Below are positions 32,838-45,810 of a stretch of DNA of 54,666 nt, piece after piece. Position 1 is the first letter of the stretch; each line of letters starts with the position of its first letter. The stretch lies in the IMG/VR virus record IMGVR_UViG_3300017963_000316, positions 1 to 54,666 of that record. One strand, written 5' to 3'. The DNA is from a virus. Below the pieces are notes generated by a model that was not told the origin of the DNA, made no database searches, and saw nothing but the letters and a program-made list of their open reading frames with translations. The position numbers and the translations under genes are program-made.

Positions 32838-33193
32838 TAAGCAGACCCGTAAGCCGAATTCTGTTTTATGTGAACATTTGTCTTGACTCAATGTTACCAT
32901 TGAATTCCTTGCCACCCACCCAAGACTATAGAGTGTAGCCCTCAGTCTTTGCTTGGTGTTGCACCAGATGGAGATTGCCCGTTTCACTCTCGTTAGAGTC
33001 AGGTGTTTGGGGAGCAGGTTGAAGATTCCCTTACTCTCCCTACCTAGACTACGCTTATCTTCCGAAGCCCTTTTCTAACAAGACTCGTCTCTGTTGCTCT
33101 AATCGTCAGATTACTCTGCCAGGGTGTTACCCTGCATCCTGCTCGTTGGTGTTCGGACTTTCCTCTCCGTAGAGCGTTCACTCAGTCTGCTTA
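32838..33193 (-). ncRNA. rnpB: RNase P RNA, type A
   Basis: On the minus strand the RNA starts TAAGCAGAC and ends GTCTGCTTA (helix P1). It contains the conserved GAGGAAAGTCCG (CR-I/P4 5' side), AGAGCAACAGAGA, GAGTGAAACGGGC and, near the 3' end, ACAGAATTCGGCTTAC (CR-V/P4 3' side). The order and the length (356 nt) fit bacterial type A RNase P RNA. RNase P removes 5' leaders from tRNA precursors. No protein subunit gene is visible here, so it presumably uses the host's. It is surrounded by 34 tRNA-type genes. Confidence 0.93.
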
Positions 33194-33330
33194 TGTTTTT
33201 TAGCATCTAACCTGCAAGCTCTCCTACAAACAGTTAAGCATATAGGAATACAAATACACAAGTCAATTGCTACATGTATTAGAATTTCAATTAATGAAAT
33301 AGTAATCCCGAAAATTATAAATTCAATCAT
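33178..33330 (-). CDS. 50-residue membrane protein ending inside RNase P RNA
   Basis: ATG at 33330 lies 8 nt after the CCA of tRNA-Ser. The product starts MIEFIIFGITISLIEILIHV and continues as a long hydrophobic, cysteine-containing segment with a basic tail. The stop lies 16 nt inside the RNase P RNA gene, the same overlap style as the tRNA-flanking genes. Not in the usual size range for gene callers, but the frame fills the gap exactly. Confidence 0.55.
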   Translation of the reverse strand: MIEFIIFGITISLIEILIHVAIDLCICIPICLTVCRRACRLDAKKHKQTE

Positions 33331-33337
33331 TTTCTTT

Positions 33338-33425
33338 TGGCGGAGGGTGCAGGATTCGAACCTGCGGGGCTGTTATACCCTTCTGTTTTCAAGACAGCTA
33401 CAATAAACCGCTCTGCCAACCCTCC
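33338..33425 (-). tRNA. tRNA-Ser (TGA)
   Basis: Acceptor GGAGGGT/ACCCTCC, anticodon loop CTTGAAA, long variable arm typical of serine tRNAs, discriminator G, encoded CCA. Confidence 0.92.
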
Positions 33426-33426
33426 A

Positions 33427-33591
33427 TTATTTAATTTTAAGAAGCTCTAAACTGGCTTCTTCAATTAATTTCGTGCGATATGGAGATTCTAGTTTAGTTA
33501 TATATGGGTCATCAATTTGTACCACTTTTAATAGTAGCTTACTCAGAATCTCTCGTATCTGTTTCAGCTTTTGTTCTTTCTTCCCTGCCAT
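33427..33591 (-). CDS. 54-residue helical protein
   Basis: ATG at 33591 with AGAGGA upstream, inside the cupin gene's 3' end. The product is basic and helical (EQKLKQIREILSKLL). The stop is 2 nt before the tRNA-Ser gene. Confidence 0.5.
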   Translation of the reverse strand: MAGKKEQKLKQIREILSKLLLKVVQIDDPYITKLESPYRTKLIEEASLELLKIK

Positions 33592-33907
33592 AGTCATCCT
33601 CTAGTCTGACAACATCTTCAACTTCTGGTGTGGAGACTTCAATTATCCCCATATCACTGTCAGTTGCTTCTATACGATGTTTGGTGTAAGGTGGGATATG
33701 TTGAACATCACCTTCATTGAAAGGAATAACAGTTTTGTTAAGTACAATAATACCTTGACCACGAATCACTAACAGTGTTTCTTCCTTAACCTTATGGTAT
33801 TGATAACTTAATCTACTACCCTTCTCGACAAAAATATACTTACCAACGTACTTATCTGTTTGAGCAAACCAAATCTCATAACCCCAAGGTTTCCTAACTT
33901 TCTGCAT
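33539..33907 (-). CDS. Cupin, phosphomannose-isomerase type II-like
   Basis: A 122-residue protein: KPWGYEIWFAQTDKYVGKYI, then LSYQYHK...E and GDVQHIPPYTKHRIEA. The HxH...E and later H pattern of the cupin metal site is recognisable, with the WG(Y/H) start typical of mannose-6-phosphate isomerase/GDP-mannose pyrophosphorylase cupins. It may act on sugar phosphates together with the nucleotidyltransferase at 29128. The stop overlaps the small gene at 33427. Confidence 0.8.
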   Translation of the reverse strand: MQKVRKPWGYEIWFAQTDKYVGKYIFVEKGSRLSYQYHKVKEETLLVIRGQGIIVLNKTVIPFNEGDVQHIPPYTKHRIEATDSDMGIIEVSTPEVEDVVRLEDDYGREERTKAETDTRDSE

Positions 33908-34132
33908 CTAACCTATTTCCTCTCCTAGCCTAATACGAAGTGGAATTACACCATATATCAAAATTGCATATTCAGGTAGTTGGTTCTTAATGTCTACAAA
34001 TGATGCAATTACATAATAATCATCGTTATCAAAGCAATGAATATACTCTTTAGAATTCAACCAATCAGATAACTTCTGACGTTCTAAAGCAGTTAAGCAA
34101 GTTTTAGCAACTAAATATGTACTTATGTCCAT
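33908..34132 (-). CDS. 74-residue hypothetical protein
   Basis: Its ATG begins right after tRNA-Thr (TGT), sharing the final CA of the tRNA 3' end (CATG). The product is helical then beta-rich (YYVIASFVDIKNQLPEYAIL). Not recognised. Confidence 0.6.
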   Translation of the reverse strand: MDISTYLVAKTCLTALERQKLSDWLNSKEYIHCFDNDDYYVIASFVDIKNQLPEYAILIYGVIPLRIRLGEEIG

Positions 34133-34133
34133 G

Positions 34134-34207
34134 AGCCGCCGAGAGGAATCGAACCCCCATCCTACCGCTTACAAGGCGATTGCTCAACCAGTACGAGCTA
34201 CGGCGGC
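34134..34207 (-). tRNA. tRNA-Thr (TGT)
   Basis: Acceptor GCCGCCG/CGGCGGC, anticodon loop CTTGTAA. No full CCA encoded (TCATG follows), so it needs the CCA-adding enzyme. The upstream HNH gene's stop lies 24 nt inside the tRNA. Confidence 0.92.
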
Positions 34208-34579
34208 ATATCTTTCACGTCTCCATGCTCTACCATTTCCTTTGTTCTTACTCTTATATGTCGGGGTTTGTGAGTCACAGTTAGAGCATATTAAACGTAA
34301 GTTTCCAAGTAACCAATTGTCAGCGTTACCGTCTATATGGTCAAGAATAAGCACTATGGGTTCATTTAGCCACTCAGATAACCCACAAATCTCACATCTA
34401 TGACCTCTGGTTTCTATCAAGTACCATTTTTCTCTGCCTGATATTAACCTGTTAGACCTTTCAATCTCTTGTCTACGTAGACTACGTTGGTAATCCATCT
34501 GACATCTAAGACTACAATACTTTAAATTATGGTGCTCCGCACCACAATGTATACATTTCTTTTTACGATACCTGCTCAT
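34184..34579 (-). CDS. HNH endonuclease
   Basis: A 131-residue protein: a zinc-binding N-terminus (CIHCGAEH...CSLRC), then the HNH core CEICG...LILDHIDGNADNWLLGNL, then RLICSNCDSQT. This is the layout of phage HNH homing-type nucleases, which cut DNA. It sits exactly between two tRNA-Thr genes: the ATG follows the end of tRNA-Thr (CGT) and the stop is inside tRNA-Thr (TGT). A mobile origin is possible. Confidence 0.88.
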   Translation of the reverse strand: MSRYRKKKCIHCGAEHHNLKYCSLRCQMDYQRSLRRQEIERSNRLISGREKWYLIETRGHRCEICGLSEWLNEPIVLILDHIDGNADNWLLGNLRLICSNCDSQTPTYKSKNKGNGRAWRRERYAAVARTG

Positions 34580-34580
34580 G

Positions 34581-34651
34581 AGCCACTGGTAAGACTTGAA
34601 CTTACTTCCGTTGTTTACGAAACAACTGCACTACCTATATGCTACAGTGGC
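34581..34651 (-). tRNA. tRNA-Thr (CGT)
   Basis: Acceptor GCCACTG/CAGTGGC, anticodon loop TTCGTAA. CCA is not fully encoded; TCATG follows and supplies the HNH start codon. The upstream small gene's stop overlaps the first base. Confidence 0.9.
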
Positions 34652-34812
34652 TAATCAAAATATTCTTGCCTTCCACAAATCCTGTGCATGTGTTTAACTT
34701 GCTGTCTAACCCAACGTCTAATCTTCATGTATCTATGATGAGAAGCTTTATAATGTTTTCGCACTTCTTTGTTTTTTAGAGCTTCTTTTTTAAACTCACG
34801 GAAGTCTGTCAT
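34651..34812 (-). CDS. 53-residue basic protein
   Basis: ATG at 34812 inside the upstream gene's end. The product is very basic, with histidines (KEVRKHYKASHHRYMKIRRW), and could bind nucleic acid. The TAG stop shares its last G with the first base of tRNA-Thr (CGT). Confidence 0.5.
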   Translation of the reverse strand: MTDFREFKKEALKNKEVRKHYKASHHRYMKIRRWVRQQVKHMHRICGRQEYFD

Positions 34813-35053
34813 CTTCAGTTATACAACCACTTTCCCAAGTTCCATCAGGATGAATAAGGATAAAAATATCTTCATCACCCAACGTAATTTGTATACCACC
34901 TTCAGATGTTGGAGCGATGAATAGACCTTCAGTGAAGAATTTTGCCATCATTGTTGCTTTCTTGGTAATTGGTAATCCACCATAGCTGTCCCAATCATGC
35001 TCTAGTTCTAGAAAACTATCTATCTTCTTTGCTAGTTCTTTTCTCCAAGGCAT
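34796..35053 (-). CDS. 85-residue hypothetical protein
   Basis: The product has a pattern I have seen in small bacterial proteins (LEHDWDSYGGLPITKKATMM) followed by a short beta sheet (GGIQITLGDEDIFILIHPDG). Function unknown. Confidence 0.6.
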   Translation of the reverse strand: MPWRKELAKKIDSFLELEHDWDSYGGLPITKKATMMAKFFTEGLFIAPTSEGGIQITLGDEDIFILIHPDGTWESGCITEDDRLP

Positions 35054-35153
35054 TTCTATAAACCATCCCTATGTTTTTGCCATGCTTTGGTATTCTACTC
35101 TTTCGAGATTCCAGTTTTCGTTCTCTATTAGTTTGTTCGTATTCACCATCCAT
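35016..35153 (-). CDS. 45-residue basic protein, uncertain
   Basis: A frame from ATG 35153, overlapping the upstream tag gene's stop, to 35016, inside the next gene. The product is basic and arginine-rich. It fills an otherwise empty 90-nt gap; there is no good ribosome binding site. Confidence 0.3.
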   Translation of the reverse strand: MDGEYEQTNRERKLESRKSRIPKHGKNIGMVYRNALEKRTSKEDR

Positions 35154-35367
35154 TTGTAAAACACCTAAAACGCCAATGACACTTCTCACAATCTTTAACG
35201 TCTATTTCTGGTGGTAATCTACCTACGTGCCGAACAATGTTGATACAACTTTTGGTAGGAGTACCACAAGTAGGACAATAATGCCTAGTCGCCGCACCGT
35301 GTCCTACAACTCTAGTCTCACTGCCATTTGCGTACACTTTTTGACACTCAAAGCAGTAATATTTCAT
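35143..35367 (-). CDS. Zinc-ribbon protein with C-terminal CxxC tag
   Basis: A 74-residue protein: CFECQK...CPTCGTPTKSC ribbon, then the micro-motif at the C-terminus (CEKCHWRFRCFT). Its ATG shares its A with the CCA end of the upstream tRNA. Confidence 0.7.
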   Translation of the reverse strand: MKYYCFECQKVYANGSETRVVGHGAATRHYCPTCGTPTKSCINIVRHVGRLPPEIDVKDCEKCHWRFRCFTNGW

Positions 35368-35442
35368 GGTCAGGGTGGCTGGATTCGAACCAGCGACCTC
35401 CTGAGTCCAGGTCAGGTAGTCTGTCCACTGACGTACACCCTG
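35367..35442 (-). tRNA. tRNA, apparent anticodon TGG (Pro?) with unusual C33
   Basis: Acceptor CAGGGTG/CACCCTG, good T arm, encoded CCA. The anticodon loop reads CCTGGAC, which puts C at position 33 where U is nearly universal. TGG would be proline, but identity is uncertain. The A of CCA is the A of the next gene's ATG. Confidence 0.7.
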
Positions 35443-35549
35443 ATAGGGGAAGCAAATGGCTTGGTATCACTTCCCACTTATTCTTTATACGTTTGGTTGA
35501 AACTCGTAGTTTCAATACTCAACACCAGTTCCAAGCAACTAAGTGTATG

Positions 35550-35624
35550 TCGGAATGAAAGGATTTGAACCTTCGACCCCATGCTCCCAAAGCATGTGCT
35601 CTAGCCTGACTGAGCTACACTCCG
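35550..35624 (-). tRNA. tRNA-Pro (TGG)
   Basis: Acceptor CGGAGTG/CATTCCG, anticodon stem-loop CATGC-TTTGGGA-GCATG, discriminator A, no encoded CCA. The phosphoesterase stop codon (TAG) is at positions 8-10 of this tRNA. Confidence 0.9.
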
Positions 35625-36220
35625 ATGTCAATTACAACAGGTTTATTTACATTTTGGTAGTATTCATTAAGGACAGAAGCATTAACAAATGTTGTCTTAC
35701 CAATTCTTTTCTGCCCCGCTCCTTCGTGAATATGTCCGAAAACATGCACTTTAGGTTCAATCATGCTTGACCGCTCAAGTAAAGACTTTGAACCAAGATG
35801 ACTGCCACTTATACTGTAATCAAGGATTCCTTTTGGTGGACTATGCGTGATAAGAACATCAACCTTATCTGGAATACATTTCCAAATATCTGCTAGTCTT
35901 TCTTCAGACCTCATAAATGCCCAACCACCAAACCTTGATGTGTAAGGAGATGCCCAAAATATAAGACCATCAATTATAACAGCTTCGCTTATTAACATCG
36001 TAGCATTTATTATGATGTTCCTGTCACTCTCAAGGTAGAAATCGTGATTACCTGGTGTGAATAAAATATGTCTAAATTTTAAAGTACCAAGCCACGCATC
36101 AAATCTTTCAACTTCTTCTCTAGTCCCGTTGGACGTGGCATCACCTGCATGGATTAAAATATCACCATCGGGAAGTTCAGGAGTACGATTATGCGTGTCT
36201 GCTATTAAAACAATCCTCAT
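35615..36220 (-). CDS. Calcineurin-like metallophosphoesterase
   Basis: A 201-residue protein with the family's metal motifs: LIADTHN (DxH), HAGDATSNG (GDxxx), TPGNHDFY (GNHD), LITHSPP and VFGHIHEGAG (GHxH). It hydrolyses a phosphoester; the substrate is unknown. Its ATG is 8 nt after tRNA-Ala CCA and its stop lies inside tRNA-Pro. Confidence 0.88.
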   Translation of the reverse strand: MRIVLIADTHNRTPELPDGDILIHAGDATSNGTREEVERFDAWLGTLKFRHILFTPGNHDFYLESDRNIIINATMLISEAVIIDGLIFWASPYTSRFGGWAFMRSEERLADIWKCIPDKVDVLITHSPPKGILDYSISGSHLGSKSLLERSSMIEPKVHVFGHIHEGAGQKRIGKTTFVNASVLNEYYQNVNKPVVIDIGV

Positions 36221-36227
36221 ATTATTT

Positions 36228-36301
36228 TGGTGGAGGTTACGAGACTCGAACTCGTCTTTTCTCATTGCAAGTGAGAGGTTCTCCCACTGAACTAAACCCC
36301 C
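36228..36301 (-). tRNA. tRNA-Ala (TGC)
   Basis: Acceptor GGGGGTT/AACCTCC with a G-T pair, anticodon loop CTTGCAA, encoded CCA. Confidence 0.93.
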
Positions 36302-36334
36302 ATTCTATACGAATTAGCTATTGAGCTTCACCCG

Positions 36335-36634
36335 TTATCCAACCTCGTCTACATATTTTCTGTTGTGGGTAATTCTTGCTTGTGTCATACTTGGTATTCT
36401 TTTTTCATCACCAGCCCTGTGTGTCCAACACCAAAATCTATTCTGGCAATCTTTACACTGTTCTTTAACCTTGACCCTTCCATTCAGCAAAGCCCACCAA
36501 CAAGTGGTGAGTTTAGTTCCACATACAGGACAACTAAGATTAAAGTCTGGTAATAACAACACGTCACAAACAGTACAGTATAATCGTTTTGGTTGTATTA
36601 GCTTTTCCATTCCTATATGCCAACAAGTTGTCAT
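36335..36634 (-). CDS. Zinc-ribbon protein with CxxC tag
   Basis: A 99-residue protein: CTVCDV...CPVCGTKLTTC ribbon, then the micro-motif with tryptophans (CKDCQNRFWCWTHR, about 61-74) and a short basic tail. The ATG shares its A with the CCA of tRNA-Tyr. Confidence 0.7.
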   Translation of the reverse strand: MTTCWHIGMEKLIQPKRLYCTVCDVLLLPDFNLSCPVCGTKLTTCWWALLNGRVKVKEQCKDCQNRFWCWTHRAGDEKRIPSMTQARITHNRKYVDEVG

Positions 36635-36720
36635 GGTGGGTTAGATAGGATTTGAACCTACTTAGTCCGAAGACGCCAGTTTTACAGACTGGTGCGACTC
36701 CCCATCTTCGCCGCTAACCC
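36634..36720 (-). tRNA. tRNA-Tyr (GTA)
   Basis: Acceptor GGGTTAG/CTAACCC, anticodon loop CTGTAAA, long variable arm as in bacterial tyrosine tRNA, encoded CCA overlapping the next ATG. Confidence 0.93.
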
Positions 36721-36769
36721 ATAAATAGGTAACGTTCCTGTAGGCATTTCTACCCACAGGATACATTCC

Positions 36770-36845
36770 TGGTGCCGACTAGAGGAGTCGAACCTCTTAC
36801 ACCTGGTGCTTCACGCCAGTGCTCTACCACATGAGCTTAGTCGGC
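36770..36845 (-). tRNA. tRNA-Phe (GAA)
   Basis: Acceptor GCCGACT/AGTCGGC, anticodon loop GTGAAGC, encoded CCA. The closing pair of the anticodon stem is a mismatch. Confidence 0.9.
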
Positions 36846-36847
36846 AT

Positions 36848-37005
36848 AAATCTGAGCGTTGGGCAGACTGTCTACCTTCCACAGAGCCTAGATTACTAGC
36901 ATGGAGGCTAAACTCCTAATCCAATAACTCTGGTTAGATTTTCCCCGACCTGCCACATCCTGCGGGCTAGTTAGACAATACCTGCTTACTAACTCAGATG
37001 TCCCG
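36848..37005 (-). ncRNA. Candidate structured RNA between a gene and tRNA-Phe
   Basis: A 160-nt non-coding stretch whose ends pair (ATCTGAG with CTCAGAT). Inside are GTTAG/CTAAC, GGAG/CTCC and CTAG-TAAT-CTAG hairpins. No frame longer than 16 codons is seen. It is co-oriented with the tRNAs and would be released by RNase P at tRNA-Phe. Family not recognised; the size is near that of 6S RNA but I do not see its features. Confidence 0.5.
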
Positions 37006-37007
37006 AT

Positions 37008-37382
37008 TTAGGAAAATTTCTTCAGGAGTTTCTCCAAACGTGCTACTTCACCATTGGTTGTTCCAGCATTAGCTTTTGAAACGTTGATAGCTTGCTCGTT
37101 CTTCCTCTTGGTAGCTTCCCTCTCAGCTTTCAAGCGTGCGATACCCTGCTTCGTTTCCTCATCATTGCGAGCATCCTCGGTCTTGATTTTAGCGATTTGT
37201 CTCTCAGATGCAATAACATCTTTGTTGAGAGCCGCTATAGCCTCTTGACCTTCGGGTACTACGGTAAGAGGTAAATCCACAATCGCACACACACCCTTGA
37301 TTGTCCGTACATCGGACTTTTTGAAGCCTACCTCAGCTTCATAGCGTTCGAGTTCCCTTAACCCAAATTTCTCAGCAGTCAT
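37008..37382 (-). CDS. Coiled-coil protein
   Basis: A 124-residue protein; residues 50-124 form a long charged helix (KDVIASERQIAKIKTEDARN, IARLKEAE-like, ARLEKLLKKF). It has a good ribosome binding site (GGAAAGGAA) and its own promoter at 37425. Function unknown. Confidence 0.7.
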   Translation of the reverse strand: MTAEKFGLRELERYEAEVGFKKSDVRTIKGVCAIVDLPLTVVPEGQEAIAALNKDVIASERQIAKIKTEDARNDEETKQGIARLKAEREATKRKNEQAINVSKANAGTTNGEVARLEKLLKKFS

Positions 37383-37424
37383 TTCCGTTCCTTTCCTTTA
37401 TTTAGAATTTTTCATTCTACCTAT

Positions 37425-37453
37425 ATTATACCATATGCCAAGTGAGATGTCAA
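37425..37453 (-). promoter_or_regulatory. Shared-type promoter
   Basis: Minus strand TTGACA (37453-37448), 17 bp spacer ending TGGCATATGG, TATAAT (37430-37425). Transcription would start about 36 nt before the coiled-coil gene and continue into the structured RNA and tRNA-Phe. Confidence 0.85.
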
Positions 37454-37470
37454 GCCCTTTCTACGGCTTG

Positions 37471-37553
37471 TGTCGGTGGAGAGATTTGAACTCTCATGCC
37501 CTTTTGAGCACTGGATTTTAAGTCCAGCGTGTATGCCATTCCACCACACCGAC
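37471..37553 (-). tRNA. tRNA-Leu (TAA)
   Basis: Acceptor GTCGGTG/C(A)CCGAC, anticodon loop CTTAAAA, long variable arm. No encoded CCA (ACAAG follows). The upstream gene's TAG stop shares its last G with the first base. Confidence 0.92.
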
Positions 37554-37879
37554 TAATCTAACCACCCTTTTAACCATCTTAGTTTTCGGTGATTCCAACA
37601 TATTTCTTCACACTGTGAATCTGCGTTTAAGTGCTGTCTAACCTCCTGCATCGGTAGATAACCCCAATGTCTTCTAGGATTACCGCACATATAACAAGAA
37701 CATGGAACTTTTGTTTTACGGTAGATTCCTAATGTTCTTTCTAGCTCATCTTTTGTCCACCAAGAACGATAACGCCTACCTGATTGATTCTTATTTCGTG
37801 GGGAAAACCCCTCATACCTTTTAAAGACCTTTTCGGCTTTACGCCGAGCAACAGCCAATCTAGTTCCAAGCATACACAT
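37553..37879 (-). CDS. Conserved hypothetical (CSCYMCGNPRRH family)
   Basis: A 108-residue basic protein with VPCSCYMCGNPRRHWGYLPM near residue 58, a small cysteine motif that I recall from a widespread hypothetical bacterial/phage family. ATG 37879 or 37873. The stop touches tRNA-Leu. Confidence 0.7.
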   Translation of the reverse strand: MCMLGTRLAVARRKAEKVFKRYEGFSPRNKNQSGRRYRSWWTKDELERTLGIYRKTKVPCSCYMCGNPRRHWGYLPMQEVRQHLNADSQCEEICWNHRKLRWLKGWLD

Positions 37880-37882
37880 CTC

Positions 37883-38020
37883 CTAGTTATCATGTAATCG
37901 CATCCTTGCCTCTAGTTCTCTTGGAGACTCCACATCAATATCATAGACCCAATCTATGCCATATAGATAAAGCACTGAATGTTCTATGACCCAAGTAGAA
38001 TATTCTGTTTGCTCAATCAT
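37883..38020 (-). CDS. 45-residue hypothetical protein
   Basis: The ATG at 38020 shares its A with the CCA end of tRNA-Trp. The product (MIEQTEYSTWVIEHSVLYLY...) is acidic. Short but placed exactly like its neighbours. Confidence 0.55.
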   Translation of the reverse strand: MIEQTEYSTWVIEHSVLYLYGIDWVYDIDVESPRELEARMRLHDN

Positions 38021-38097
38021 GGCAGGAGCAGTAGGATTCGAACCCACATTTCCTCGTTTTGGAGACGAGTGTTTTAATCCTGTTAAACTATACTCCC
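38020..38097 (-). tRNA. tRNA-Trp (CCA)
   Basis: Acceptor GGGAGTA/TGCTCCT, anticodon stem-loop CTCGT-CTCCAAA-ACGAG, discriminator G, encoded CCA that overlaps the next ATG. The HAD gene's TAG stop is at positions 8-10. Confidence 0.92.
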
Positions 38098-38804
38098 AAT
38101 AAACAATCAACCAGTTCATCTGCTGTCATGTAATATTTTGCTTCTAGCGTATTTTTGTTAGTAGAGATACCAAATCCAGCCGCTGAAATCATTTCTTTGT
38201 CGTTTATCTTGTCACCTATTGCTACAACATCATTTCTGTCTATATCTAGGTACATAGCAATAGCTTTTACACCTACACCTTTGGATATGGACTTCTTTTG
38301 AATGTCAAACGCTTCGCCGTTCCACATAACTTTTAAGTCACCATCAGTGTCATACTTACGGACAATCTCATAAACTTCTGGAATTTCTCTATCAGCATGT
38401 GCTGTCAAGATGAACTGTTTAGGTTCAAAACCTTTAATGTCTAGTTTAGATATTCCCCTTCGTATGTCATATATTTTATCAAAATACGCATCATCATAAG
38501 TAATGTGCTGAATTACCCTGCCGTCCACAAGGGACAAGTTCCCATTTTCAGCCTGTAATATTACTCCACCACCTAGAACCTTTGAATACATTCCTTGAAG
38601 GTAAATAAGACTTCTTCCAGAGGATACACAAATTCGTATCTTTTTCTTTAATCTATTAACCTTCTCTGCAAAGGAATCAGTTATAAGATTAGTTTTTACT
38701 ACAACCTTATGATAGTCTTCTTCGGTTGTCTCTAGGATTTCTGTACCTACTGGAACGGACACACCATCCGAATCAAGAATCAACAATTTAATATTACTGA
38801 ACAA
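38088..38804 (-). CDS. HAD-superfamily (IIB/Cof-like) phosphatase
   Basis: A 238-residue protein: LLILDSDGV (DxDG nucleophile motif, with serine between the aspartates), ICVSSGRS (motif II), SKGVGVKAI (lysine motif) and VVAIGDKINDKEM (motif IV). This pattern fits sugar-phosphatases of the Cof/mannosyl-phosphoglycerate type. The start is TTG 38804 with AAGGAG upstream. The stop is inside tRNA-Trp. Confidence 0.85.
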   Translation of the reverse strand: MFSNIKLLILDSDGVSVPVGTEILETTEEDYHKVVVKTNLITDSFAEKVNRLKKKIRICVSSGRSLIYLQGMYSKVLGGGVILQAENGNLSLVDGRVIQHITYDDAYFDKIYDIRRGISKLDIKGFEPKQFILTAHADREIPEVYEIVRKYDTDGDLKVMWNGEAFDIQKKSISKGVGVKAIAMYLDIDRNDVVAIGDKINDKEMISAAGFGISTNKNTLEAKYYMTADELVDCLLGV

Positions 38805-40497: not shown

Positions 40498-40500
40498 ATA

Positions 40501-40779
40501 TTAAACTAAAGGTTTTACATTTTCAGTACCTAAAATCTTCATACCTATTAACTTATGTCTTTTACTTCCTTTAACATAAATCTTACTGCCTGTAACACCT
40601 GCTAAAAATCTTGAGGGGCTTTTATAAGTCTTTATTTTTGACCAATCAACCTCTACGATTTCTATTCGTGACGCTGTGAAACACTTAAATCGTATTGCAC
40701 ACACATCACAACCACTACCATCACAAACAAACATATCGTTACCAGACGGTTTATTTATTAGCTTAATGAACCTGTTCAC
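40501..40779 (-). CDS. CxxC-tag protein
   Basis: A 92-residue basic protein with the micro-motif at about residues 25-38 (CDVCAIRFKCFTAS). The C-terminal half is a small alpha/beta region. The stop is 3 nt from tRNA-His. Confidence 0.65.
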   Translation of the reverse strand: MNRFIKLINKPSGNDMFVCDGSGCDVCAIRFKCFTASRIEIVEVDWSKIKTYKSPSRFLAGVTGSKIYVKGSKRHKLIGMKILGTENVKPLV

Positions 40780-40978
40780 GTCTTGATAACTCCTTAGCTA
40801 AATCAATGCCACTCCAAGAATGTACCACTATAGATGTCCAACATCTAAACCTGAGCCAGCAAGTATCACAATCCCTCGGTGTTTTGTCACAAATAATCTT
40901 GTCAGGTAGGATTCTAGGAGTAGAACGGTATATTTCTACGTCTCTTTTGTTCCTTTCTAACTTTTCTGAACTAATCAT
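40763..40978 (-). CDS. CxxC-tag protein
   Basis: A 71-residue protein with the micro-motif in the middle (CDTCWLRFRCWTS, about 37-49), preceded by ICDKTPRDC. The ATG is 2 nt after the CCA of tRNA-Gln (CTG). The end overlaps the next tag gene by 17 nt, so two tag genes are joined. Confidence 0.65.
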   Translation of the reverse strand: MISSEKLERNKRDVEIYRSTPRILPDKIICDKTPRDCDTCWLRFRCWTSIVVHSWSGIDLAKELSRREQVH

Positions 40979-40980
40979 TT

Positions 40981-41054
40981 TGGCTCTCCTGTCAGGGTTC
41001 GAACCTGAGTCCGTTGGTTCAGAGCCAACTGTGCTACCACTACACTACAGGAGA
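40981..41054 (-). tRNA. tRNA-Gln (CTG)
   Basis: Acceptor TCTCCTG/CAGGAGA, anticodon loop CTCTGAA, discriminator G, encoded CCA. Confidence 0.92.
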
Positions 41055-41324
41055 TTACTTATATAAATGTTTATAATATTTCCAATTCCTATTCCATCCC
41101 AAGTCGTGGCAAGTCTTTGGTGATAAGAAACCTAGTTCTTCTGCCCTGTATCTAGCTGACTTGTAATGCCCGAAGATGTATCTGATACCTCTTTTATCAC
41201 CAAGTAGACCAGAATCAAAACTACTTTTCCACTGGTTATTAACACCAAATCTTTTAGTATTCAACAATAAGTGTACTATGAGCTTCCAGTTTTTACAGAT
41301 AAAGATAATCCCGTGTATGTTCAT
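41055..41324 (-). CDS. 89-residue basic hypothetical protein
   Basis: A basic protein with a tryptophan- and tyrosine-rich C-terminus (HDLGWNRNWKYYKHLYK). Its TAA stop ends at the base directly before tRNA-Gln. Overlaps the phosphoesterase end by 4 nt. Confidence 0.6.
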   Translation of the reverse strand: MNIHGIIFICKNWKLIVHLLLNTKRFGVNNQWKSSFDSGLLGDKRGIRYIFGHYKSARYRAEELGFLSPKTCHDLGWNRNWKYYKHLYK

Positions 41325-41821
41325 AATAAACCAAGCAACTTGTCTAGCGAAAGCGGGTAGTAATCAAGCATCTCAGCACTTACGTTAATCGTTCTTCTTT
41401 CCTTGTTGACTAGAGGGTATAGTTCTGGATAATTGTTATGATGATGCCCATGAATCATCCAACCATCCCACTTGGGTTTATCATAGTCAGGAGAATGTAT
41501 TAATAAGAACCTTACTCCACCCAACTCTACTATGTGCCATCTGTGAACTGGTGTGATTCCTCTAATACTTTCTTTCCTGTCATGATTACCCTTGATAAGA
41601 ACTTTCTTACCATTTAGTTTTTGCCACCACCAACTACCATCCCTACTTCCTCTGCCATACGCAATGTCACCCAAGTAATAAACCGTATCTTCTACGGTCA
41701 CCGTCTCGTTCCAACGTTTAACAAGAGTCTCATTCATTTCCTCAACAGAACTGAACGGTCTATTGCAATACTTGATGATGTTTGTATGGTCTAGGTGTAA
41801 ATCACCAATTAAGTATATCAT
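41321..41821 (-). CDS. Calcineurin-like metallophosphoesterase (YfcE/COG4186-like)
   Basis: A 166-residue protein: LIGDLHLDHTN (DxH with extra His), YYLGDIAYG (GD), IKGNHDRK (GNHD), LLIHSPDY and MIHGHHHNN (GHHH). It resembles small prokaryotic and phage phosphoesterases of the COG4186 type. The ATG at 41821 shares its A with the CCA of the upstream Met tRNA. Confidence 0.88.
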   Translation of the reverse strand: MIYLIGDLHLDHTNIIKYCNRPFSSVEEMNETLVKRWNETVTVEDTVYYLGDIAYGRGSRDGSWWWQKLNGKKVLIKGNHDRKESIRGITPVHRWHIVELGGVRFLLIHSPDYDKPKWDGWMIHGHHHNNYPELYPLVNKERRTINVSAEMLDYYPLSLDKLLGLL

Positions 41822-41895
41822 GGTTGCGGGGGTGAGAATCGAACTCACGTAGACCTGCTTATGAGACAAGTCGGGTAACCAACAACCTCCCCACT
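41821..41895 (-). tRNA. tRNA-Met (CAT), initiator-like acceptor end
   Basis: Acceptor AGTGGGG/CCCCGCA leaves positions 1 and 72 unpaired (A-A), the hallmark of bacterial initiator tRNA, and the 3' end CCCCGCAACCA is like that of E. coli tRNA-fMet. Anticodon loop CTCATAA. The anticodon stem, however, lacks the three G-C pairs of typical initiators. CCA overlaps the next ATG. Confidence 0.75.
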
Positions 41896-41897
41896 GT

Positions 41898-42047
41898 TTA
41901 ATGATTCTTGAAGAAACAATCTTCTTCACACGGCGTACCATCAGGTAGTGTCCAAGGTGGAACTCTACTCCCACATCCTCTGCACTTGTCAGGTACGTTT
42001 CCAATATGGTCAAGGATAAAATCTAATATTTTATCTACTATTTTCAT
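41898..42047 (-). CDS. 49-residue cysteine-containing protein
   Basis: The ATG at 42047 shares its A with the CCA of tRNA-Glu. The product has a helical start (MKIVDKILDFILDHIG) and CRGCGSR...CEEDCF. The stop is 2 nt from the Met tRNA. Confidence 0.6.
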   Translation of the reverse strand: MKIVDKILDFILDHIGNVPDKCRGCGSRVPPWTLPDGTPCEEDCFFKNH

Positions 42048-42120
42048 GGTAGCGATAGAGGGAATCGAACCCTCGTTGCTAGGTTGAAAGCCTAGTTGCC
42101 TGCCATTAGCAGATACCGCC
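42047..42120 (-). tRNA. tRNA-Glu (TTC)
   Basis: Acceptor GGCGGTA/TATCGCT, anticodon loop CTTTCAA, encoded CCA overlapping the next ATG. The upstream gene's TAA lies 15 nt inside. Confidence 0.92.
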
Positions 42121-42261
42121 AATATAGATTGCTCTGTAGTCTCCGCACCGCAAAATTACGTTGTCTTCCTTCCACCTATCATTCAATAATATTATAAGAA
42201 GGTCACCAATTATTATACGATTGTTATTTACCATTGACTTAGGAGCACTACGCTTTTTCAT
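42106..42261 (-). CDS. 51-residue basic protein
   Basis: ATG at 42261, 2 nt after the CCA of tRNA-Asn. The product (MKKRSAPKSMVNNNRIIIGD...) is basic then hydrophobic. The stop falls inside tRNA-Glu, the same layout as its neighbours. Confidence 0.55.
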   Translation of the reverse strand: MKKRSAPKSMVNNNRIIIGDLLIILLNDRWKEDNVILRCGDYRAIYIGGIC

Positions 42262-42263
42262 TT

Positions 42264-42339
42264 TGGCTCTGGTGGTTGGACTCGAACCAACATATTTACG
42301 GTTAACAGCCGTTCCTATTACCGATTATAGTACACCAGA
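42264..42339 (-). tRNA. tRNA-Asn (GTT)
   Basis: Acceptor TCTGGTG/CACCAGA, anticodon loop CTGTTAA, discriminator G, encoded CCA. The upstream gene's stop lies 15 nt inside. Confidence 0.92.
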
Positions 42340-42633
42340 ATCGAAACCGAAATCATCTGGATAAGCAGAATAAATTGCGTCTGCCTCACCATTTACCACA
42401 TCCACAATAACTGTTCTTTCAAAAACTCTCGTACTAGCACATACAAACTTGAAGTCACAGTGACGGCATTTAGGTTTGAAACCAAAATTATCACTTTTAC
42501 CCATCCTGCAAAGCTTAGTACGGTGATTGAGTGAATGACAAGCGGATGGGTCTTTTACTTTCCCCTTAACAAATCTAAAGATAGTGATTGTTTTACATTC
42601 ACGACAAATACCCAAATAAACCCTTTTGTTCAT
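42325..42633 (-). CDS. CxxC-tag protein
   Basis: A 102-residue protein: CRECKT near the start and a variant micro-motif at about 57-70 (CRHCDFKFVCASTR, with alanine after the last cysteine). The ATG shares its A with the CCA of tRNA-Cys. The stop is inside tRNA-Asn. Confidence 0.7.
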   Translation of the reverse strand: MNKRVYLGICRECKTITIFRFVKGKVKDPSACHSLNHRTKLCRMGKSDNFGFKPKCRHCDFKFVCASTRVFERTVIVDVVNGEADAIYSAYPDDFGFDSGVL

Positions 42634-42708
42634 GGAGGCACTGGTCGGAATCGAACCGACTTAAAATCGCTTTGCAGGCGACCGCCTTATCCAATTAGCT
42701 ACAGTGCC
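42633..42708 (-). tRNA. tRNA-Cys (GCA)
   Basis: Acceptor GGCACTG/CAGTGCC, anticodon loop CTGCAAA, discriminator T, encoded CCA overlapping the next ATG. Confidence 0.93.
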
Positions 42709-42969
42709 TTATAATCTTGTTACCAGATTAAACGCTCTGATATAGAATTCCTCATCTGGTATTTCCCAATAATTTTTATACCTCAAATCAGCTAACATCT
42801 CGGACGGTAATTCTCGTAGTTTCTCATCTATATCTATACACCACAAATCAAGTCCTTCACTCGTAGTATAACAAGTAAATCTAAAAGGACACCCATCACA
42901 TCTTGTATGACAAGGGAACTTTACTACTAATTCTTGTTCAGCATTTTTAATAGTAACTATCTTTTTCAT
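42709..42969 (-). CDS. CxxC-tag protein
   Basis: An 86-residue protein with the micro-motif near residue 22 (CDGCPFRFTCYTTS). The TAA stop ends exactly at the base before tRNA-Cys. ATGA overlap with the upstream membrane protein. Confidence 0.7.
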   Translation of the reverse strand: MKKIVTIKNAEQELVVKFPCHTRCDGCPFRFTCYTTSEGLDLWCIDIDEKLRELPSEMLADLRYKNYWEIPDEEFYIRAFNLVTRL

Positions 42970-43106
42970 GCACTGCCAGTCCCACGAGGTCCATTACCAC
43001 CTTTAGATGCTAACCAAAGTAGGAAAGCAATAAACAACATAACCCAAACAAATGCCCAAAACATTGTCATAGCTATAAATTCTAACATGAAGTCTTTACC
43101 TCTCAT
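42966..43106 (-). CDS. 46-residue single-pass membrane protein
   Basis: ATG at 43106 with GAGG upstream. The product has one transmembrane helix (MTMFWAFVWVMLFIAFLLW) and a short glycine-rich tail. Its TGA overlaps the next ATG. Confidence 0.6.
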   Translation of the reverse strand: MRGKDFMLEFIAMTMFWAFVWVMLFIAFLLWLASKGGNGPRGTGSA

Positions 43107-43130
43107 AGTAAGACCTCACCGTTCCTCACT

Positions 43131-43206
43131 TGGCGGTCTATACGGGTTTCGATCCCGTCCCTCATCCTTGACAGGGATGTATGCTCACCATTAACACCTA
43201 TAGACC
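43131..43206 (-). tRNA. tRNA-Asp (GTC)
   Basis: Acceptor GGTCTAT/ATAGACC, anticodon loop CTGTCAA, discriminator G, encoded CCA. The upstream gene's TAG stop lies inside at positions 7-9. Confidence 0.92.
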
Positions 43207-43593
43207 TCTACCTGTTCCTGTAACGTATAGAATATTTGGGAACTTTACCCATGAACGTTCTATACCAATTCTCTCGTCATCTTCCTCTACTATTGCTCCT
43301 AGCTTAAACCCATCACCGAAATTCTCTCTATAACTTCTGCTCCAATAACCAGTATCAGCTACTTGCTTGTAGAGTCCCAATCTTAAACATTTGGGTAGGT
43401 GGAACTCTGCTTTGAATCTCTCATAACTTCTATATTGGTCATGTACTTCTTCAGTTTCCACCTTGACAGGATTAACGTGAATCCTATCATCAGTAAAGCA
43501 CTCAAACCTATGGAGACAAGTATTACAATACTCAGAATCCCAAGTCCAAGTTCTTTTCATCGTTCTGTCATCTGTTGCTGTATATAAATACAT
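43198..43593 (-). CDS. CxxC-tag protein
   Basis: A 131-residue protein with the micro-motif near the N-terminus (CNTCLHRFECFTDD, about 22-35). The rest is a globular domain with aromatic residues (YSRSYRENFGDGFK) that I do not recognise. The stop is inside tRNA-Asp. Confidence 0.7.
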   Translation of the reverse strand: MYLYTATDDRTMKRTWTWDSEYCNTCLHRFECFTDDRIHVNPVKVETEEVHDQYRSYERFKAEFHLPKCLRLGLYKQVADTGYWSRSYRENFGDGFKLGAIVEEDDERIGIERSWVKFPNILYVTGTGRGL

Positions 43594-43603
43594 AATCTTT
43601 CAT

Positions 43604-43690
43604 TGGTGCGGGTGATAGGAGTCGAACCTACACGCATGTTACTGCACTACGTTCTAAGCGTAGGGTGTCTACCAGTTTCACCACACCCGC
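43604..43690 (-). tRNA. tRNA-Leu (TAG)
   Basis: Acceptor GCGGGTG/CACCCGC, anticodon loop CTTAGAA, long variable arm, encoded CCA. Confidence 0.93.
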
Positions 43691-43768
43691 ATGATGGGGA
43701 AGTACCAGTATTGCATGACGTTCATCAATTGCCTTTGTGTACCTTTTCATCGGCTGTACTCCACCCCG

Positions 43769-43848
43769 ACTCGCTGGCGGGACTTGAACCCGCATTTACA
43801 GATCCACTTACGGTTAACAGTTTAGGAAACTGCCCCGACTACAGCGAG
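43769..43848 (-). tRNA. tRNA-like gene, abnormal D/anticodon region
   Basis: A perfect acceptor (CTCGCTG/CAGCGAG) and T arm (GCGGG-TTCAAGT-CCCGC) enclose 48 nt that do not fold into normal D and anticodon arms. The best hairpin is GCAGT-TTCCTAA-ACTGT, which would give anticodon CCT (Arg) but leaves almost no D arm and a 23-nt variable region. No encoded CCA. It may be degenerate or specialised. Confidence 0.55.
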
Positions 43849-43870
43849 ATAAAAGTAAGATTGGCTTACC

Positions 43871-43946
43871 TGGCACCCCTGCCGAGATTTGAACTCGGAC
43901 TATTGGTTTAGAAGACCAATGTGTTCTCCAGTTACACTACAGGGGC
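43871..43946 (-). tRNA. tRNA-Arg (TCT)
   Basis: Acceptor GCCCCTG/CAGGGGT, anticodon loop CTTCTAA, discriminator G, encoded CCA. The upstream gene's TAA lies 15 nt inside. Confidence 0.92.
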
Positions 43947-44363
43947 AAATATTTTCCATTCGTTTTTATATTTTTCGTATTTACCACAATTATCATTAGC
44001 ACGTTTATCAAGTTCTCTATGTGGATACAATGATACGTATATTGTGCTAATAGCTTCTATAGGAATAAAATACCACACATCCTCTGGTATTATATAACAA
44101 CCAATAATATCAACATCATCTTTTGTGTATTTTACTTTTGTCTTACTCCCTTTACCAATTATTAGTCTGTAAGTTTTATTGTCACTATTCTTCAATTTTT
44201 GCTGGTATGACACACTTTTAATTTGCAATCTATTGAAAGTTCTATTACTTTCTATAATATAATCATATCCTACAGTATTAAAAGGAGTGGCTACAACAAG
44301 ACCACGAAGCATCGCTTCATATAAAAACTTAGCTTGTGCCGTTTCTCCTTGTTTTAATGACAT
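43932..44363 (-). CDS. Group I intron-like/PDDEXK-type endonuclease-like protein, unconfirmed
   Basis: A 143-residue protein. The opening (GETAQAKFLYEAMLRGLVVATPFNTVGYDYIIE) and NRLQIKSVSYQQK fit the PD-(D/E)XK pattern of phage and archaeal endonucleases: G(x)..A....GY D ... (L)QIKS. These residues suggest a nuclease; I am only moderately sure. The start follows AGGAG placed right behind the CCA of tRNA-Arg (ACG). The stop is inside tRNA-Arg (TCT). Confidence 0.6.
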   Translation of the reverse strand: MSLKQGETAQAKFLYEAMLRGLVVATPFNTVGYDYIIESNRTFNRLQIKSVSYQQKLKNSDNKTYRLIIGKGSKTKVKYTKDDVDIIGCYIIPEDVWYFIPIEAISTIYVSLYPHRELDKRANDNCGKYEKYKNEWKIFAPVV

Positions 44364-44374
44364 TTCATTCTCCT

Positions 44375-44452
44375 TGGACCCCCTGGCGAGACTCGAACTC
44401 GCAACAACCTTGGTTCGTAGCCAAGTGCTCTATTCCATTGAGCTACAGGGGG
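44375..44452 (-). tRNA. tRNA-Arg (ACG)
   Basis: Acceptor CCCCCTG/CAGGGGG, anticodon loop CTACGAA, encoded CCA. It lies 1 nt from the 3' end of the next tRNA, so the two are tandem. Confidence 0.92.
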
Positions 44453-44453
44453 A

Positions 44454-44549
44454 TGGTAGGAACGGAAGGACTCGAACCTTCAACCTTGGGGAAATCAGCC
44501 CCTAATACCGCTTATAAGACGGTTGCACTGCCAATTGTGCTACGTTCCC
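44454..44549 (-). tRNA. tRNA with anticodon TAT (Ile) and long variable arm
   Basis: Acceptor GGGAACG/CGTTCCT, anticodon stem-loop ACCGT-CTTATAA-GCGGT, encoded CCA. It has a 20-plus nt variable arm with GGGG/CCCC, normal for Leu, Ser and Tyr but not for Ile. The charging identity is therefore uncertain. The upstream gene's TAG stop is at positions 8-10. Confidence 0.8.
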
Positions 44550-44791
44550 ATCCTCCAATTATTGAAACATTCTCGTATCTTTCTAGGAGACCCCATTTTC
44601 CTAAGCTCATAGTAAAGACATGGGTCTGCAATTGTCACGTACCATTTAAGCGTATAACATTTAAATCTTAACTTACATTCGTTACACTTAACAACACCGT
44701 TACCATTACAAGAAAACGAAACAAAGTCATTATTCTTGTAGGAAAATGGATGTTCAGGAACATCATCGTAAATACGAATTTCTTTCTGCAT
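44540..44791 (-). CDS. CxxC-tag protein
   Basis: An 83-residue protein with the micro-motif in the middle (CNECKLRFKCYTLK, about 36-49). The ATG at 44791 shares its A with the CCA of tRNA-Glu (CTC). The stop is inside the next tRNA. Confidence 0.7.
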   Translation of the reverse strand: MQKEIRIYDDVPEHPFSYKNNDFVSFSCNGNGVVKCNECKLRFKCYTLKWYVTIADPCLYYELRKMGSPRKIRECFNNWRMGT

Positions 44792-44869
44792 GGTAGGGCT
44801 ATGGGGGTTCGAACCCCAGTTCACACTTCGAGAGAGTGTTGTCCTTATTGTCCACTAGACGATAGCCCC
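44791..44869 (-). tRNA. tRNA-Glu (CTC)
   Basis: Acceptor GGGGCTA/TAGCCCT, anticodon stem-loop ACACT-CTCTCGA-AGTGT, encoded CCA overlapping the next ATG. The variable and D regions are slightly long. Confidence 0.88.
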
Positions 44870-44894
44870 ATAGTCAGGGAGACGATAACTTATT

Positions 44895-45161
44895 TTAGTT
44901 AAGTCTCTCTATTGTTTTTCCTTCATCATTAAGAAGGTAAGTTGTACGATTTGTTAATACCAGAAATTCCTGACCATCCCTTTTTAGAGCACGAATCAAA
45001 AGTGCTACACCATCTTCAGCATCAAACCAGCGTGCATCCACTTCATAATCCTTGACACTAGCCTCATCTACGAAATCATAATGGACACGAGTTAATCCAT
45101 CATAAAAAATCCAACCATTTAATTTGGCTTTACCTTTCTCGCTTTTTATCTTTACTATCAT
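44895..45161 (-). CDS. 88-residue hypothetical protein under the tandem-hairpin RNA
   Basis: An alpha/beta protein (MIVKIKSEKGKAKLNGWIFY...GVALLIRALKRDGQEFLVL) that I do not recognise. It has a strong ribosome binding site (GGGAGGA). Its leader is copy B of the tandem-hairpin motif, so it is probably regulated like the 630-residue gene at 12275. Confidence 0.65.
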   Translation of the reverse strand: MIVKIKSEKGKAKLNGWIFYDGLTRVHYDFVDEASVKDYEVDARWFDAEDGVALLIRALKRDGQEFLVLTNRTTYLLNDEGKTIERLN

Positions 45162-45194
45162 ATTATCCTCCCTATCTATCTCCCTGACTAACGT

Positions 45195-45332
45195 GGCGGG
45201 TAGTATTTAAACTCAAATGTCTTTTTTAAGAGGAACTACCTATGCCATCTAAACCGACTATACAAGGACGAGTAGTAAATTCGTACCGCCTTTCGGCGGT
45301 TCTGTCCATAAATAGGAACTACTTATGTCCTT
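45195..45332 (-). promoter_or_regulatory. Tandem-hairpin cis-regulatory RNA motif, copy B
   Basis: On the minus strand it begins AAGGACATAAGTAGTTCCTATT, identical to copy A over 22 nt apart from the flanks, and repeats the two-hairpin plan: AAGGAC/GTCCTT with GTAGT/ACTAC inside, then GGC/GCC with GGTAGT/ACTACC, and TTCCT after each inner stem. The first loop carries an extra ACCGCC-GAAA-GGCGGT hairpin. It starts immediately after the CCA of tRNA-Lys (CTT), so RNase processing would release it as an mRNA leader. Confidence 0.65.
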
Positions 45333-45408
45333 TGGTGCTTGCGAAGGGACTCGAACCCTTATTGTCTGGTTTAAGAGACCAGTGCTGTGCCAATTTAGCT
45401 ACGCAAGC
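45333..45408 (-). tRNA. tRNA-Lys (CTT)
   Basis: Acceptor GCTTGCG/CGCAAGC, anticodon loop CTCTTAA, encoded CCA followed directly by the tandem-hairpin RNA. Confidence 0.92.
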
Positions 45409-45412
45409 TTTG

Positions 45413-45517
45413 GTGAGGGAGCAGGAATTGAACCTACATCTTTACTCTAAAACGAGAGCAAGGGAAAACCGACATTCAACTTTAAAACCTATTGTTCTAC
45501 CTTTGAACTATCCCCCA
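45413..45517 (-). tRNA. tRNA-like gene, abnormal and long
   Basis: Acceptor TGGGGGA/TCCCTCA, a good D arm (GTTC-GAAC) and T arm (GTAGG-CCTGC), but 105 nt long. The anticodon region (around AATAGGTTTTAAAGTTGAATG) lacks a proper 5-bp stem with a 7-nt loop. An extra hairpin (CTCT-CGTTTT-AGAG) follows. It could contain an insertion, be degenerate, or have a special function. Confidence 0.5.
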
Positions 45518-45519
45518 CG

Positions 45520-45591
45520 TGGATGTGATGGGACTCGAACCCACACCGTTCGGTTTAAAAGACCGCTACTCTTCCATCGAGCTACACATCC
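45520..45591 (-). tRNA. tRNA-Lys (TTT)
   Basis: Acceptor GGATGTG/CACATCC, anticodon loop CTTTTAA, no encoded CCA. Its 3' end is 2 nt from the abnormal tRNA-like gene. Confidence 0.9.
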
Positions 45592-45810
45592 TTATTGTAA
45601 CATCCCTTGATTCCTAGTAAAAGTTACCGCATCTAATAGAGCTTCATTAGGAAACTCAGAATCATCTACTGACCAATTATAACCATGTTCCCAAAACCAG
45701 TCTACAGGATTAAATCCTTCCCAAGTTAAGTATAACCACAACTCTAACTTGAGACTCCACTTCTCTGAGTCATATTCAGGAAAAGTTAAATACTTACTAA
45801 AATCCTTCAT
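45592..45810 (-). CDS. 72-residue hypothetical protein
   Basis: An acidic, tryptophan-rich protein (WLYLTWEGFNPVDWFWEHGYNW). The TAA stop ends at the base before tRNA-Lys (TTT). ATGA-type overlap with the next gene. Confidence 0.6.
   Translation of the reverse strand: MKDFSKYLTFPEYDSEKWSLKLELWLYLTWEGFNPVDWFWEHGYNWSVDDSEFPNEALLDAVTFTRNQGMLQ

Follow-up and report, generated by a model that had tools for sequence, protein, structure and literature searches.

Protein genes interlocked with tRNA genes in a viral contig that carries an RNase P RNA: a possible phage form of tRNA punctuation

Can one transcript yield both a tRNA and a message when the last base of the tRNA is also the first base of the start codon that follows? 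This question is raised by IMG/VR record IMGVR_UViG_3300017963_000316, a record of 54,666 bases that was analysed over its full length (the window) and that is viral and linear by classification. On its minus strand, tRNA genes alternate with small protein genes, about ten of which open at the 3' border of a tRNA, while a dozen stop within or across the following tRNA and four directly before it. Judging from this arrangement, cutting of the tRNAs probably decides which of the small proteins can be made, much as in mitochondria.

ARAGORN finds 31 tRNAs in the window, every one on the minus strand, and Rfam adds three tRNA-like genes together with a class A RNase P RNA. The resulting 34 tRNA-like genes cover all 20 of the 20 amino acids. 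CCA is encoded by 25 of the tRNA genes, and at least six window tRNAs have no encoded CCA. The tRNA genes and the protein genes bound up with them are the following (aa, amino acids; nt, nucleotides).

33338..47036, minus strand: tRNA cluster, 32 tRNA or tRNA-like genes interleaved with small genes (ARAGORN and Rfam)
At 32759 and 53904, minus strand: tRNA-Gln and tRNA-Met, outside the main cluster
33908..34132, minus strand: interlocked gene, 74 aa; CATG 2 nt after the discriminator of tRNA-Thr(TGT), which is CCA-less; coding z 4.2
34184..34579, minus strand: interlocked HNH endonuclease-like gene, 131 aa; CATG behind tRNA-Thr(CGT); stop at position 22 in tRNA-Thr(TGT)
35143..35367, minus strand: interlocked gene for a Cys-motif protein, 74 aa; CCATG of tRNA-Pro
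36335..36634, minus strand: interlocked gene for a Cys-motif protein, 99 aa; CCATG of tRNA-Tyr
37883..38020, minus strand: interlocked gene, 45 aa; CCATG of tRNA-Trp; coding z 3.3, the weakest
39618..39836, minus strand: interlocked gene for a Cys-rich protein, 72 aa; CCATG of tRNA-Gly
41321..41821, minus strand: interlocked phosphoesterase gene, 166 aa; CCATG of tRNA-Met; PHROG 547 match from residue 1
41898..42047, minus strand: interlocked gene, 49 aa; CCATG of tRNA-Glu(TTC); stop just before tRNA-Met
42106..42261, minus strand: near-interlocked gene, 51 aa; ATG shortly past the CCA of tRNA-Asn; stop inside tRNA-Glu(TTC)
42325..42633, minus strand: interlocked gene for a Cys-motif protein, 102 aa; CCATG of tRNA-Cys; stop inside tRNA-Asn
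44540..44791, minus strand: interlocked gene for a Cys-motif protein, 83 aa; CCATG of tRNA-Glu(CTC); TAG at positions 8-10 of tRNA-Ile

The junctions were tabulated by reading the minus strand, and every coordinate of a preliminary description of this DNA was rechecked. That description had reported eight starts at which the A of an encoded CCA is also the A of the ATG, and all eight are correct (35367 behind tRNA-Pro, 36634 Tyr, 38020 Trp, 39836 Gly, 41821 Met, 42047 Glu, 42633 Cys and 44791 Glu). Two CATG starts that it had placed in the same class, 34132 and 34579, do lie at a tRNA boundary but share no CCA; there the ATG begins 2 nt past the discriminator base of a tRNA-Thr gene without CCA. 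Since two of the ten starts stand behind CCA-less tRNAs, it is presumably the border and not the CCA that is shared. The twelve stops described as lying within the next tRNA are also correct. Two of them (34651 and 37553) straddle the 5' boundary, with TA before it and G after it. TAG at tRNA positions 8-10, said to be used often, occurs in only 3 of the 12, and the remaining stops are found at tRNA position -2, 6, 7, 13, 21 or 22. Four further stops end, as described, at the base directly before a tRNA. Altogether, ten starts lie 2-3 nt after a discriminator base and 16 stops lie inside, across or directly before a tRNA. The interlock is confirmed in the window, where tRNAs abut protein genes as their borders, a feature of mitochondrial-type punctuation.

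This arrangement exceeds what is usual in viral tRNA arrays. Base rates were taken from viral loci drawn by a pattern that requires a CCA-encoding tRNA and leaves the following bases unconstrained; the sample of 447 CCA-encoding tRNAs from 115 other viral loci gives a rough rate, because it comprises about the first 120 matches of the scan and a single T-arm sequence. A CCATG that opens an open reading frame (ORF) of at least 40 codons is present at 8 of 25 CCA-encoding tRNAs in the window and at 2 of the 447 in the sample (Fisher p = 8e-10; binomial 1.6e-13), so that the excess of boundary starts reaches nearly two orders of magnitude. CCA is followed by TG, whatever lies beyond, at 15 of the 447 sampled tRNAs and at 8 of 25 here. 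Stops of ORFs of at least 50 codons fall inside 12 of 31 window tRNAs versus 50 of 574 in the sample (Fisher p = 1.4e-5). The start offsets differ in the same direction: 11 of 21 window starts lie at +3 to +6 after the discriminator, whereas nearly all sample starts lie at least 9 nt past it, which leaves room for a ribosome binding site. U at tRNA position -1 was considered as a special signal and set aside as ordinary, being present at 21 of 34 tRNAs here and at 60% of other viral tRNAs.

The small frames have the properties of genes. In all ten interlocked frames the codon usage resembles that of the genome's other genes (z 3.3-5.7) and is the best of the six frames, and none has a later start with a good Shine-Dalgarno site in its first 25 codons. 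The ten include one phosphoesterase (PHROG 547), one HNH endonuclease and four Cys-motif proteins. The motif, C-x2-C-x2-[RK]-F-x-C-[YFW], has 37 sites in the window, which are spread over both coding strands (614 and 8026 on the plus strand and 35190 and 44686 on the minus strand are examples). It is mostly carried by different small or medium proteins, N-terminal in some and C-terminal in others, and the Cys-motif proteins tested gave no convincing match to a Pfam family.

How the boundary starts might be recognized was assessed from the pairing of the 20 nt upstream of each start with the anti-Shine-Dalgarno sequence. The ten boundary starts have a median of +0.2 kcal/mol, which is worse than random sequence (-2.1), and only one of them, 34132, reaches -5.0 kcal/mol. 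For other window genes the medians are -5.6 and -5.9 kcal/mol, with 51% and 59% of starts at -5 or better. Without a Shine-Dalgarno site, ribosomes are unlikely to initiate while the transcript is uncut; any start signal would have to come from the 5' end made by a cut or from re-initiation after an upstream stop. The 3' half of a tRNA offers no Shine-Dalgarno site, and cutting may therefore make the boundary starts usable. The sequence features of leaderless messages fit the ten boundary starts.

Three perfect promoter-like sites of the form TTGACA-17-TATAAT were found, and all of them precede multi-gene stretches:

47165..47193, minus strand: perfect promoter-like site (TTGACA-17-TATAAT), upstream of the cluster
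46207..46235, minus strand: perfect promoter-like site within the cluster
37425..37453, minus strand: perfect promoter-like site within the cluster, upstream of the RNase P part

A separate promoter for each gene, which the preliminary description had named as an arrangement that would refute its reading, was not seen, and no perfect site is positioned to start a transcript at an interlocked ATG. Promoters inside the tRNAs that would yield separate leaderless transcripts were likewise considered, and none is correctly placed.

The window also encodes machinery for tRNA processing. The RNase P RNA, the tRNA-Gln that abuts it, two tRNA-like genes, the CCA-adding enzyme and the stop of the 33178-33330 frame had all been missed in the preliminary description.

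32834..33193, minus strand: RNase P RNA, bacterial class A; RF00010 at 188.2 bits versus a gathering score of 100, model positions 1-367
32759..32833, minus strand: tRNA-Gln(TTG), 65.8 bits; first base directly after the last base of the RNase P RNA
32650..32700, minus strand: stem with T run, likely terminator of the tRNA/RNase P unit (-18 kcal/mol, z -4.2)
33178..33330, minus strand: 50-aa ORF behind tRNA-Ser, stop codon within the 5' end of the RNase P RNA
29552..30970, plus strand: CCA-adding tRNA nucleotidyltransferase with HD domain, 472 aa; PF01743, PF12627, PF01966

The RNase P RNA lies at the downstream end of the tRNA cluster and in the same direction. Its P4 core is intact, with 8 of 8 pairs and the U69 bulge, and ACAGAGA is present. 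Because it abuts tRNA-Gln, a cut that frees this tRNA would generate the ribozyme's 3' end as well. No other ribozyme is listed by Rfam in the window, and a blastn search of INPHARED with this RNA gave no match. The nucleotidyltransferase has the head, RNA-binding and HD domains expected of a class II CCA-adding enzyme and is placed with CCA-adding enzymes by TIGR02692 at 341 bits, under that model's 439-bit cut-off, versus 154 bits for pcnB, and it is needed by the six or more window tRNAs in which CCA is not encoded. A search through this enzyme among bacterial genomes yielded no host prediction. One tRNA-like gene of the cluster, 45413-45517 on the minus strand (43 bits), is odd in that its T arm lies unusually far from the possible anticodon arm; gaps of 2 and 4 nt separate it from the tRNA-Lys genes on either side.

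What is directly shown is that tRNA ends are gene boundaries, that these starts have no Shine-Dalgarno sites and that an RNase P RNA and a CCA enzyme are present. The best reading of these sequence features, to which we assign a probability of about 0.45, would be tRNA punctuation in a phage form, with the transcript used in stages; staged processing had been raised in the preliminary description and is the most likely reading. A few promoters (47193, 46235 and 37453) would produce long transcripts that run through many tRNAs and genes to the terminator. Ribosomes trailing the polymerase would finish each upstream gene at the stop inside the next tRNA before that tRNA folds. RNase P, made of the phage RNA and perhaps a host protein subunit, would then cut at base 1, and the upstream message would lose its stop. 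A host 3' endonuclease of the RNase Z type could cut after the discriminator base, the downstream message would then begin with C(C)AUG and be read as near leaderless, and the phage CCA-adding enzyme might restore the CCA end of the tRNA. The RNase P RNA would gain its own 3' end by cutting the fused tRNA-Gln. If this is true, tRNA cutting is a switch that turns border genes on and their upstream neighbours off.

The preliminary description had concluded that excision of a tRNA removes the stop codon of one message and the start codon of the next, so that a transcript can serve as tRNA or mRNA but not as both. The first half of this holds. A cut by RNase P at base 1 would take all or part of the stop codon in 12 genes, and A-tailing could regain a UAA in only three of them (34651, 37553 and 39904); the messages of these genes would carry a usable stop only while they are uncut. 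Completion of stops by polyadenylation, as in mitochondria, was accordingly rejected as a general rule. On the start side exclusivity does not follow. A cut after the discriminator leaves C(C)AUG on the message and the CCA enzyme could rebuild the tRNA, so the start codon need not be lost, and two of the ten starts stand behind tRNAs that have no CCA to share.

Several points weigh against staged punctuation. The 12 genes with tRNA-internal stops would become stopless after cleavage, with A-tailing as a rescue for three. Bacterial tRNAs that encode CCA are often poor substrates of RNase Z for a cut at the discriminator, and exonuclease trimming of the 3' side would destroy the downstream start. 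No match to the RNase P protein RnpA (PF00825) and no RNase Z gene (PF12706) were found in the window, and host enzymes must be assumed for both. Finally, protein searches of IMG/VR and INPHARED for close relatives returned only homologues of one or two genes, so the ten junctions are not traceable in sister genomes.

Four other explanations have to be set beside staged punctuation. Frames that are open by accident beside tRNAs would account for the short ones (45 and 49 aa) and for those without a family match; the codon usage, the Cys motif common to four, the phosphoesterase and HNH endonuclease among the ten and the base-rate p of 1.6e-13 strongly disfavour this reading, which is highly improbable. 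A somewhat unlikely account is that each transcript copy is used uncut as mRNA or cut as tRNA, that no leaderless mRNA is made, and that the interlock is a cheap way of setting the ratio of tRNA to protein. It fits the stop-side overlaps of the 12 genes directly, and a 3' cut on the far side of the CCA, which some RNase Z enzymes make, would cost the start codon as well. Initiation on the uncut RNA is hard to see, however, with no Shine-Dalgarno site and a folded tRNA at the initiation region.

Another idea is that a ribosome ending in a tRNA slides 50-77 nt to the AUG and so couples both genes by translational re-initiation. For seven of the ten interlocked starts, an upstream gene does stop in the tRNA concerned or no more than 4 nt away from it, but three have no such stop, the distance is long without a Shine-Dalgarno site, and the tRNA would be kept unfolded; we consider this mechanism quite unlikely. 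Alternatively, small genes with weak and dispensable expression might be swapped as cassettes when tRNA genes recombine, and any starts or stops that happen to fit tRNA ends would be retained as space savers. Lone CCATG genes are widespread among phages (43 of 118 loci in a pattern scan that selects for them), one and the same small gene can follow tRNAs of different kinds, and phage tRNA packing is generally tight, with zero-gap arrays. Yet the pile-up of starts at +2/+3, where other viral tRNAs have almost none, would be left unexplained, as would the loss of Shine-Dalgarno sites that the genome's other genes have kept, and such compaction by exchange is an unlikely source of the interlock.

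tRNA punctuation is known from animal mitochondrial RNA (Ojala, Montoya and Attardi 1981, as cited in PMC3797045). As there, the tRNAs of the window border protein genes with gaps of none or a few nt, starts stand at tRNA 3' borders and may be leaderless, and the mRNAs would be freed when RNase P and a 3' nuclease cut out the tRNAs, with CCA added later. Unlike there, the genome is that of a bacterial virus, most tRNAs encode CCA, stops lie deep inside tRNAs with only 3 of 12 completable by polyadenylation, and outside the array the genes rely on Shine-Dalgarno sites of the ordinary kind. The interlock would work like tRNA punctuation and is filed here as a variant, not a member, of the mitochondrial type.

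Other systems share single elements with the window. In yeast mitochondria the RNase P RNA, RPM1, is part of a unit of tRNA-fMet, RPM1 and tRNA-Pro (PMC3797045). That RNA, like the one in the window, forms part of a tRNA transcript and is followed by a tRNA, which places the enzyme's substrate in its own precursor. The phage RNA differs in being a nearly complete bacterial class A RNA that directly abuts its tRNA and is virus-borne; RNase P RNA recurs in 13 other viral contigs. Theta ribozymes, small self-cleaving RNAs of the hepatitis delta virus (HDV)-like type, lie beside gut-phage tRNAs at their 3' trailers (PMC10879173). They too are phage-encoded ribozymes proposed for maturing phage tRNAs; the ribozyme of the window is RNase P, which acts on 5' ends. 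Passages of PMC7162821 describe large phages with many tRNAs and CCA-adding enzymes, and passages of PMC8172020 describe megaphages with 74 tRNAs and a tmRNA, tRNAs and tmRNA being the only RNAs detected there. The large tRNA sets and the tRNA end-processing enzyme are like those of the window, as far as these passages go; they contain no interlocked starts, and RNase P does not appear as a term in the text available from PMC7162821. In the literature searched, which had preprints and most subscription journals outside it, no report was found of a phage RNase P RNA or of a phage tRNA/mRNA interlock.

Synechococcus phage S-CRM01 offers a further comparison. Its tRNAs alternate with genes, and in the middle of its tRNA region lies a 31%-identical homologue of a 634-aa window protein. 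In contrast to the window, only 2 of its 34 tRNAs (ARAGORN, in the stretch examined) have CCA, no start is of the CCATG form and the gaps are mostly ordinary. The 634-aa protein itself (12263-14167, plus strand) has no assigned family and is 31-32% identical to proteins of the cyanophages S-CRM01 and S-CBWM1.

RNase P RNAs occur in other viral arrays. A single strict pattern scan of IMG/VR, with an RF00010 check, gave 13 other tRNA-rich viral records (L126-L138, 7 to 203 kb) that match RF00010, 7 of them over the gathering score; L128 and L129 are near-identical. P4 has 8 of 8 pairs in 13 of the 14 viral RNAs and 7 of 8 in one, with compensating changes. The 3' end of the RNA abuts a tRNA in 8 of the 13 other records, at joints where 29-37 nt separate the tRNA from conserved region V, which is about the normal length of the 3' tail, and its 5' end lies 0-2 nt behind a tRNA in 6 of the 13. 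Several other viral arrays have zero or one base between tRNAs. Several of these RNAs are strongly shortened, with 144-208 nt between conserved regions I and V versus 301 in the window, and they retain the P4 core. RnpA (PF00825) gave no match in the 13 records, some of which are possibly fragments, and the controls were positive. The matches of another viral RNase P RNA in a blastn search look like host DNA or unannotated gut contigs. Terminase matches are present in two RNase P-bearing records, G014 over the family cut-off and G005 below it. In the 54.7-kb fragment studied here a terminase (PF03237), the one tailed-phage hallmark looked for, was not found, and the fragment's virus status rests on IMG/VR and on phage-type families.

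Many phages have a single CCATG gene that looks real. A recurrent multi-gene form of the interlock was sought in loci where two CCATG frames reach at least 40 codons and was rejected, because these are mostly frames over neighbouring tRNAs; L142 is an exception, with two plausible genes. A second pattern scan gave no locus with two clean CCATG genes. A conserved CCATG family (MKEHM...) was set aside because its fifth codon is an ATG that could serve as the start instead. In four related phage contigs (L375, L415, L468 and L475), the CCATG of tRNA-Gly(TCC) opens a glutamine-amidotransferase-like gene (216-222 aa), of which no homologue was found in INPHARED.

The best comparative evidence for a maintained border position comes from other phages, in the sequences of a Zn-ribbon-like family of 70-aa proteins, MKHIIHVHQQKIKK... 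(loci L483-L517), which is unrelated to the window's genes. Eighty homologues were collected regardless of their junction, some being near-duplicates. Among the 21 homologues with a tRNA no more than 150 nt upstream, 17 start 0-4 nt after the tRNA, 7 of them with CCATG. The tRNA in front of these starts is one for Arg, Val, Asn or Leu and may or may not encode CCA; where a homologue has no tRNA before it, a normal Shine-Dalgarno site is often present. In three members chosen by their joint, the coding sequences differ by about 28% and the tRNAs by up to 36%, and the joint is kept. At the tRNA-Asn/gene joints of L511 and L512, the acceptor stem carries GGGAG in its 3' strand, spaced from the ATG as a Shine-Dalgarno site would be; this binding site would be free only if the tRNA is unfolded.

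Punctuation of messages by tRNAs has so far been thought a feature of organelles. It is possible, if doubtful, on these sequences that certain large phages have their own system of tRNA punctuation, in which an RNase P ribozyme, released from its precursor by cutting of the tRNA joined to its 3' end, frees tRNAs and creates leaderless messages at their borders. If true, punctuation can arise again in bacteria, and phages of this kind provide a testable system in which tRNA processing controls protein output. The RNase P RNAs in 13 other viral arrays raise the question of why a virus carries a ribozyme that bacterial hosts generally have. Candidate reasons are escape from host defences directed at tRNAs, the load of precursors and control of the virus's own small genes.

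Genes away from the array include the following. Successive genes at 14292-19175 (plus strand) open with MK[IV]RxGF[VI]SNSSS, a second repeated motif, N-terminal, to which no role is assigned; SNSSS occurs 10 times. A peptide deformylase gene (27925-28395, plus strand; PF01327, E 9e-30) encodes an enzyme that acts on the formyl group of new proteins. A Mom-like DNA modification protein is encoded at 49970-50758 on the minus strand (PHROG 1384, E 7e-41).

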